A stretch of 64,000 nt of DNA. Source: Halocatena salina (GTDB lineage Archaea; Halobacteriota; Halobacteria; Halobacteriales; Haloarculaceae). Below the pieces are notes generated by a model that ran no database searches, had not been told where the DNA came from, and saw only the letters and a list, made by a program, of their open reading frames with translations. The stretch is taken from the NCBI RefSeq assembly GCF_023115355.1, contig NZ_CP096019.1, positions 1,984,001 to 2,048,000 on the forward strand, in the 5' to 3' direction. Positions 32,060 to 56,150 of this stretch are shown piece by piece. Every line of letters starts with the position of its first letter. Within the stretch, counting starts at the first letter, position 1. The translations under genes were made by a program, and so were the position numbers.

Positions 32060-32968
32060 TCACTGCTCGATGAGCCGATCGAACGATCGTGCGGCTTCCT
32101 TCGATGGCGGGCCGATCCGTTGGGGATGGATCACGCCGGCGAGCTGTTCGAGTGATTCGGCGATGCGGACCCCCGGACGGTTCATGTGCTCGTGGCCGTC
32201 GATGGCGTACACCCGACCAGCAGCGACGGCGGTCAGTTCCGACCAGCCTTCGCGTTCGGTGAGATCAGTGCTGTTTTCGGCTGTCTGTTCGAGGTCGAAT
32301 CCACACGGGGCGACGACGAGTACGTCGGGATCGACCGCACGGATCTCGTCCCACTCCCGGGGGATCGACGCCTCGGCATCGAAGGGCGTCCGGCCGCCAG
32401 CGATCGACACCATCTCGGGCACCCAGTGGCCAGCGGTCATGAGGGGATCCAACCAGTCGAGCACCACAACTTGGGGTCGCTCGTCGATCTCCGTGACAGC
32501 GTCCCGAACCGACTCGATGCGGCTGTCGAACGCTTCGATTACCTCGACCGCCCGCTCGGACCGTCCCACTGCCCCGCCGATGCGCTCGATGTCCGATCGA
32601 ATGTCCCCGAGGCTGTGTGGGTCCGTGGTGAGGATCTCACAGTCCAGATCCAACTCACTGACGGCCTCTTCCACGAGCACCTGATCGACGGCACACACGT
32701 CACACAAACCCTGTGTGACGATAAGATCCGGATCGGCTGCTGCGAGCACGTCGAGATCGATCTCGTAGACGCCCCCGTTGCGCTCGGCCTGTAGCACCTG
32801 TTGATCGATCACGGCGCTACTCGCCGTCGCATCGATCCGGGCGTGATTGACGACCGGTTTCGATCGCGCCGCAGGCGGATGATCACACTCGTGTGACACC
32901 GCGACCGGTGAAATCCCGAGCGCGTAAACGATCTCCGTCGCAGAGGGAAGCAGCGTCACGACACGCAT
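32060..32968 (-). CDS. Cobalamin-binding protein, BtuF-like, without signal peptide
   Basis: A 302-residue protein of the periplasmic-binding-protein class III fold (BtuF/FecB type), beginning directly with the fold's first strand (MRVVTLLPSATEIVYALG). It has the vitamin B12-binding group features GLCDVCAVDQV and DWLDPLMTAGHWVPEMV. No signal peptide or lipobox is present, so it appears cytoplasmic unless a signal has been lost. The upstream in-frame start at 33010 adds no hydrophobic segment. No BtuC or BtuD partners are adjacent. Confidence 0.82.
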   Translation of the reverse strand: MRVVTLLPSATEIVYALGISPVAVSHECDHPPAARSKPVVNHARIDATASSAVIDQQVLQAERNGGVYEIDLDVLAAADPDLIVTQGLCDVCAVDQVLVEEAVSELDLDCEILTTDPHSLGDIRSDIERIGGAVGRSERAVEVIEAFDSRIESVRDAVTEIDERPQVVVLDWLDPLMTAGHWVPEMVSIAGGRTPFDAEASIPREWDEIRAVDPDVLVVAPCGFDLEQTAENSTDLTEREGWSELTAVAAGRVYAIDGHEHMNRPGVRIAESLEQLAGVIHPQRIGPPSKEAARSFDRLIEQ

Positions 32969-33293
32969 GCTACTGATTCGTCCTCCGAGACGGTAAACGT
33001 CTGCTCCCACTGACCGATCCTACCGCTCGCTGGCTAGGTGCCGATCGTCGGAACGAGTTGCCACGTCGAACTAGTCACGGCTGACATCAATAGTACAAAG
33101 ACTTGTCGGTACGCTACTGACGACCTAGTGGTGATTCGTCGGTCTGTCCGTATCGATAACAATTTACTCGGCGAGTGATACCCATTTGAGTGATGAGATC
33201 GAGTCCACCGTTCACATATCGTGATGTGATACGGGCCGATCAAAACCGATTGTACAGGAAATCGAGCGTGAGCGTCCAGCTTGTGGGTGAACG
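32969..33293. other. Intergenic region between divergent genes
   Basis: About 325 bases shared by the promoters of the BtuF-like gene and the sugar transporter. It includes an inverted repeat CACAT-N6-ATGTG at 33213-33228, about 65 bases before the transporter start, and AT-rich patches around 33155-33180. I see no gene or RNA in it. Confidence 0.5.
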
Positions 33294-55349: not shown

Positions 55350-55434
55350 CGGCATCCCGGAGTAGCTAACCGTCGAACAGCGATCCGTTTTGGCGGTGCT
55401 ACATCTGTATGTATAGCTATCATATTACAAATGT

Positions 55435-55719
55435 ATGTCAAACGCATCGGCCACTGATAGCAGTGACACCCTCGTACAGATCAACGTTCGTGTGACCGAA
55501 CAGTTTTCTCGAACAAATAGATGACACGTGGCAGGGACGAGGATTCAATTCTCGGTCGGAGTACATCCGACTGTCCTCCACGACGCAACGGAGCACTCGA
55601 CCTTTGATCGAGACGAACTGTTCGCGCTTGCTCTCGCGGAGCGCGAGATCCGTAACGAAGAAACGATCTCCCGCGCTGATATCCTCGATCGATTCGATCT
55701 TGAAATCCCTGAGGGATGA
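55435..55719 (+). pseudogene. Ribbon-helix-helix antitoxin with two compensating frameshifts
   Basis: The frame from ATG 55435 starts normally (DTLVQINVRVTEQ) but stops at 55522-55524. The expected RHH continuation, DDTWQGRGFNSRSEYIR, is found in the next frame at 55520-55570. The C-terminal part (VLHDATEHS, then DELFALALAEREI) is back in the first frame and runs to the stop at 55719. An extra T in the run at 55504-55507 and one missing base near 55570 explain both shifts. Together the pieces give a full-length CopG/RHH antitoxin of about 94 residues. It overlaps the toxin start by four bases. Either a broken gene, sequence error or recoding. Confidence 0.75.
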
Positions 55720-56150
55720 CTGACAGGGACGATACCGACGAGTGGTCGTGGCGGTTTACCTCGACGGCGGAGGGGGATCTCGCCGCTCTTGAACGTACGG
55801 ACCGACAGCAGATCGTCACCAAACTGGAGAACATCTGTAACCCTCCGTGGCGCGATCTTCCTGATTACGGTGAGCGATTGAAAAACAGTCCATACAGAAA
55901 GGTACGAGTTGGAGGATTCCGGTTCTCGATCACGTTTGACCGTGAGTGCAAGGAAACGGTCATTGCGCGTATCAAACGCCGTGATGGCGCGTACACTGTG
56001 ACGATTGAAACGGACATTTGCAGGGAACCGAGTGTCGGTGACAGCTACGGTACTGGGACGACTGTATCGACATCGACGACGGTAACGGCGTCGGGTGCGT
56101 GGTCGTGGATCCCGCTGTCGATCGTGACGAGCGACCAGAGCGAGCAGTGA
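55716..56150 (+). CDS. RelE/ParE-family toxin
   Basis: A 144-residue protein. The first ~95 residues match the RelE/ParE toxin fold: WRFTSTAEGDLAALERTDRQ, then LPDYGERLKNSPYRKVRVGG and VIARIKRRDGAYT. Such toxins cleave mRNA at the ribosome or poison gyrase. The last 45 residues are Ser/Thr-rich and not typical of the family, which normally ends soon after DGAYT; a lost stop may have added them. The ATG overlaps the antitoxin stop (ATGA), the usual layout of a toxin-antitoxin pair. Confidence 0.85.
   Translation: MTDRDDTDEWSWRFTSTAEGDLAALERTDRQQIVTKLENICNPPWRDLPDYGERLKNSPYRKVRVGGFRFSITFDRECKETVIARIKRRDGAYTVTIETDICREPSVGDSYGTGTTVSTSTTVTASGAWSWIPLSIVTSDQSEQ

Follow-up and report, generated by a model that had tools for sequence, protein, structure and literature searches.

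The window, that is, the whole 64,000-nucleotide stretch of Halocatena salina DNA analysed here, contains a locus that, judged from sequence comparisons, is most probably (probability about 0.86) a recently acquired and subsequently pseudogenised RelE/ribbon-helix-helix (RHH) type II toxin-antitoxin module, of a family that is widespread in haloarchaea (Table 1). The antitoxin-toxin gene order and the overlap between the two genes are kept, but both genes are broken, which is not the make-up of a functional type II operon.

Table 1. Features of the decayed toxin-antitoxin locus (positions are those of the window).
Feature	Position	Strand	Evidence
Diverged remnant of promoter/operator before the antitoxin; putative regulatory role	55374..55434	+	Upstream comparison
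Segment absent at the same site of sister species G004 (35 bp instead); insert carrying the toxin-antitoxin pair	55392..56145	.	blastn blocks
First antitoxin piece (frame A): start and opening part of ribbon-helix-helix	55435..55503	+	Translation, alignment to intact relatives
Frame break 1: four-T run, +1 versus family	55504..55507	+	Translation, pairwise alignment
Second antitoxin piece (frame B): FLEQIDDTWQGRGFNSRSEYIR, RHH domain core	55505..55570	+	Translation, genome search, residue match
Frame break 2: -1 versus family; two bases in place of the relatives' codon	55571..55572	+	Comparison with relatives
Third antitoxin piece (frame A): C-terminal, presumably toxin-binding part; stop overlaps toxin start	55573..55719	+	Translation, alignment
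RelE/ParE-superfamily toxin core, residues 1-94; invariant residues kept, P48L, P54R and L70F changed	55716..55997	+	Profiles, alignments, structure model
Frame break 3: -1 versus family, directly after GAYT; C-terminal xDD(D) and family stop lost	55998..56000	+	Alignments
Out-of-frame toxin tail; last codons fall in sequence lying between genes at the empty site	55998..56150	+	Synteny; predicted disordered, pLDDT <50

Three-frame translation bears out the original prediction that the antitoxin is spread over frames A, B and A. The ATG at 55435 opens the gene in frame A with MSNASATDSSDTLVQINVRVTEQ, the VTEQ of which ends at 55503, and this frame then continues as FSRTNR up to the TGA at 55522-55524. 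Frame B carries FLEQIDDTWQGRGFNSRSEYIR from 55505 to 55570, a segment that includes the peptides FLEQIDDTWQGR and GFNSR, and from 55573 the gene is back in frame A with VLHDATEHSTFDRDELFALALAEREIRNEETISRADILDRFDLEIPEG (VLHDATEHSTF...), down to the stop codon at 55717-55719. The first shift had been predicted at the T-run 55504-55507, where both the translation and the alignment to the nearest copy of the pair (locus L014) put it; the second, predicted near 55570, is placed at 55571-55572; and the frame-A stop at 55522 and the GTG at 55528, named as the only possible restart, are both present in the translation. Runs of T are a typical place for sequencing error and for mutation alike.

As many as 21 of 22 residues of the frame-B piece agree with intact antitoxins of the family, and the search of the genome recovered this piece as a match of its own (25 residues at 72% identity, E 2.8e-7); it therefore is not a chance reading. 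The residues of the RHH domain are present, spread across two frames instead of lying in one open reading frame. When joined, the antitoxin pieces resemble RHH families at scores under the curated cut-offs (17.2 bits against RHH_1, for which the cut-off is 20.5), and they depart from conserved sites three times, compared to 5-6 departures in the intact clade of this antitoxin. The genome search yielded no intact antitoxin of this family elsewhere in the genome. In the relatives, elements of the GTAAKAC-N4-GTATTAC type lie immediately 5′ of the antitoxin ATG.

The toxin had been described as apparently intact, which is wrong: its open reading frame (55716-56150) holds a third single-base break near 55998 that the original prediction missed, and three near-invariant residues are changed. 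The window toxin tracks the family through the conserved GAYT (codon end 55997) and loses the frame directly thereafter; pairwise alignment to L014 (contig 4 of genome G005) opens a one-base gap right after GAYT, as it does at both antitoxin breaks. With few exceptions, the intact toxins among 71 loci from named haloarchaea end in GAY[T/K]xDD(D)-stop at ~95 residues, and intact toxins of the same genus consist of 95 residues ending in RRSGAYTADD-stop or RHSGAYTADD-stop. This conserved C-terminus of the subfamily is absent from the window toxin. Because the frame breaks after GAYT and the reading runs on past the family stop, the 45-residue tail, previously noted only as odd, is an out-of-frame reading. 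The near-invariant family sites P48, P54 and L70 are all substituted and the C-terminal D is missing; among 24 intact representatives, only one distant outlier shows more departures from conserved sites. The fully invariant toxin residues are all retained (11/11).

The original prediction offered three explanations, namely two assembly errors, an inactive toxin, or an antitoxin made by frameshifting. The first is unlikely and the last is unsupported (see below). The second is supported more strongly than had been stated, given that the tail is a frame break replacing the conserved C-terminus and that three near-invariant residues are altered, and we infer that the window toxin would no longer be toxic. 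Since the toxin is broken too, the paradox of a toxin without an antitoxin is removed. Where the two genes differ from the intact copy, third codon positions are still favoured (17/16/59 in the antitoxin and 26/23/57 in the toxin), which points to a recent decay; with breaks that look recent, the codon-position test for selection has little power.

By sequence profile and predicted fold, the toxin core is assigned to the RelE/ParE superfamily. The profile of the relatives finds RelE structures, namely that of Thermus (2khe, E 7.6e-10) as well as those of the E. coli and M. tuberculosis proteins. The window toxin itself scores 18.5 bits against Pfam ParE_toxin, under the 23-bit cut-off, and the search with this family across the source genome gave no matches. 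In the AlphaFold2 model, the core (pLDDT ~80 for residues 11-90) adopts a compact beta-alpha-alpha-beta-beta-beta fold, for which Foldseek returned RelE, YoeB, ParE and HigB, with E 5e-6 to 9g12. Profile and predicted fold agree with RelE proteins of known structure (2khe from Thermus, 4v7k and 4fxe from E. coli, 3g5o and 9g12 from M. tuberculosis, and 1wmi from Pyrococcus); however, identity to these is low (14-25%), the partner antitoxins vary between systems, and the window protein adds a disordered out-of-frame tail.

The intact relatives are annotated as a ribbon-helix-helix protein next to a RelE/ParE toxin (in the haloarchaeal pairs, ‘ribbon-helix-helix domain-containing protein’ and ‘type II toxin-antitoxin system RelE/ParE family toxin’), and the closest named ones come from Actinarchaeum halophilum YIM 93972 and the isolates YIM A00010 and A00013. 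With the RelE/RHH pairs of A. halophilum (plasmid CP071310) and Halalkalicoccus jeotgali (plasmid NC_014299), the window locus has in common the gene order, the stop/start overlap and the antitoxin motif GFNSRSE[YF]IR. The toxin is 58% identical to those of the closest intact copies; the window copy is set apart by its three frame breaks, its extended toxin and its altered conserved residues. Compared to decayed toxin-antitoxin loci in general, in which both frames of a former operon are broken too, there is nothing distinctive beyond the particular copy.

The pair makes up a ~0.75-kb insert that is flanked by a hydrolase gene and by cinA. Homology to the sister species G004 (~84-89% DNA identity over the window) halts at 55391 and restarts at 56146 in blastn comparison, and the distance between the hydrolase gene and cinA is 126 bp in this species and 67 bp in G005, so that the site is empty in both. 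The simplest reading of these comparisons is that the pair would have been gained on the source lineage, with loss in G004 and G005 as the alternative. A search of the insert edges for transposon-like ends or a target-site duplication revealed only short, imperfect repeats, and neither a clear target duplication nor clear terminal repeats.

The behaviour of the family among relatives is consistent with decay that starts from the toxin. The window toxin alone, when used as a query, found no match in named genomes, the query patterns having drawn on the non-homologous tail; the 71 haloarchaeal loci were found with an alignment of the relatives. Both genes passed the automatic tests in 53 of them, and three more loci with an intact toxin have an intact antitoxin by eye; thus, an intact toxin is accompanied by a one-frame antitoxin in 56/56 cases (three judged by eye). 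The antitoxin is kept beside a broken or truncated toxin in 11 of the 71 loci, neither gene is intact by the test criteria in four (some of these at contig ends), and an intact toxin next to a broken antitoxin occurs in none of the 71. Given 11 loci of the one kind and none of the reverse, decay appears to proceed toxin first. In L088, L096, L111, L126 and L147, the toxins stop in frame near the N-terminus and the antitoxins are intact, and such copies are common in the family. In Natronorubrum thiooxidans (L117; NZ_FTNR01000007, ~3001), the toxin overruns the usual stop (162 residues) and the antitoxin is without its N-terminus.

Several copies in the same genus are intact and continuous in frame, and others are relics. 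The only other family copy in the source genome (contig 1 of G000, ~1,097,974-1,098,442; loci L009 and L150) has lost the reading frame in both of its genes, and its toxin gene also contains a nonsense codon; the counterpart of this copy on contig 39 of G004 (L005), seemingly at the same site, is ~91% identical and frame-broken with nonsense codons. In L014, the nearest copy to the window pair (G005 contig 4, ~257167-257657; 71% DNA identity), both genes are broken independently, at positions other than those in the window. In L012 (G006 contig 3, ~150683-151244), the antitoxin is intact and the toxin is broken near residue 49; by its sequence, this locus is a putative intermediate stage of decay. 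Little specific literature was found on degraded toxin-antitoxin loci in archaea. A survey of type II systems lists RelE-RHH among the commonest pairings and describes many solo, possibly inactivated members, with the remark that pseudogenes are hard to spot in such small genes (PMC2701414). The window locus fits this picture.

It could be argued that the breaks are assembly or sequencing errors and that the real organism has an intact pair, as would suit breaks of a single base, one of them inside a homopolymer, in a family of which several close copies are intact. The neighbouring genes provide a strong, if indirect, error control that makes this unlikely. The control used the syntenic 48 kb; the alignment of the window to 100 kb of the G004 contig covers ~46 kb, and the non-multiple-of-three indels are almost all intergenic or locally compensated pairs. 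Some 39 genes (~39 kb) correspond one-to-one, at full length and in a single frame; the one doubtful case is an N-terminal difference near 33.0 kb. There, in the minus-strand gene at 32063-33239, the G004 orthologue has an N-terminal extension that matches in a different frame within a divergent stretch, possibly reflecting a frame difference or a different start. Under a Poisson estimate that assumes independence and a uniform error rate, three breaks in 0.586 kb have p ~6e-7 at one break per 39 kb and ~1.5e-5 when the rate is raised to its upper bound, 3 per 39 kb. Moreover, the toxin is also substituted at conserved sites, and family copies in other assemblies are independently broken.

Alternatively, the locus might be partly active, with a working tailed toxin neutralised by a C-terminal antitoxin fragment that restarts at GTG 55528 and does not bind DNA. 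The toxin-binding C-terminal half of the antitoxin stays open, in frame, as far as the toxin start, the invariant toxin residues are retained, and the differences are biased to third positions. However, of the 63 amino acids of this putative product, which enters the native frame only at 55573, the first 15 are out of frame, the toxin lacks the conserved C-terminus and is altered at three conserved residues, and the arrangement is seen in no relative, all of which renders partial activity very unlikely. It is likewise very unlikely that the tailed toxin, kept under control by such a fragment without the DNA-binding domain, would constitute a type II module lately freed from its own repression. 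Programmed frameshifting, which in principle could yield a full antitoxin because the two antitoxin breaks compensate and the first is at a T-run, is extremely improbable and was rejected: the intact relatives are all single-frame and have no need of it, three unrelated shifts would be required (+1 and -1 within one short gene and another -1 in the toxin), the second break shows no slippery heptamer by inspection, and the other broken copies, several of them in the same genus and broken independently, break elsewhere. Decay into a relic is the simplest reading, an ordinary fate of such genes that calls for no special translation mechanism.

Under the preferred reading of a decayed module, the ancestral intact pair, by analogy with its family, would have comprised an RHH antitoxin that keeps the operon repressed and the toxin blocked, and a toxin that acts as a RelE-type ribosome-dependent mRNA endonuclease. 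The intact pair would have been acquired on the source lineage, and the toxin, as the family pattern and the conserved-site changes suggest, would have been disarmed first, through loss of the C-terminus and/or the changes at conserved sites. This order is to be expected if the toxin must be disarmed before the antitoxin can go; once the toxin was dead, the antitoxin would no longer be needed and its frame could be lost. No functional product is expected from the locus now.

The locus implies no new mechanism; it represents a small but well-documented case of toxin-antitoxin turnover, with gain at a defined intergenic site that is empty in sister species, later decay, and several relics within one haloarchaeal genus. 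It also carries a caution, namely that a slightly overlong toxin open reading frame may conceal a frame break.
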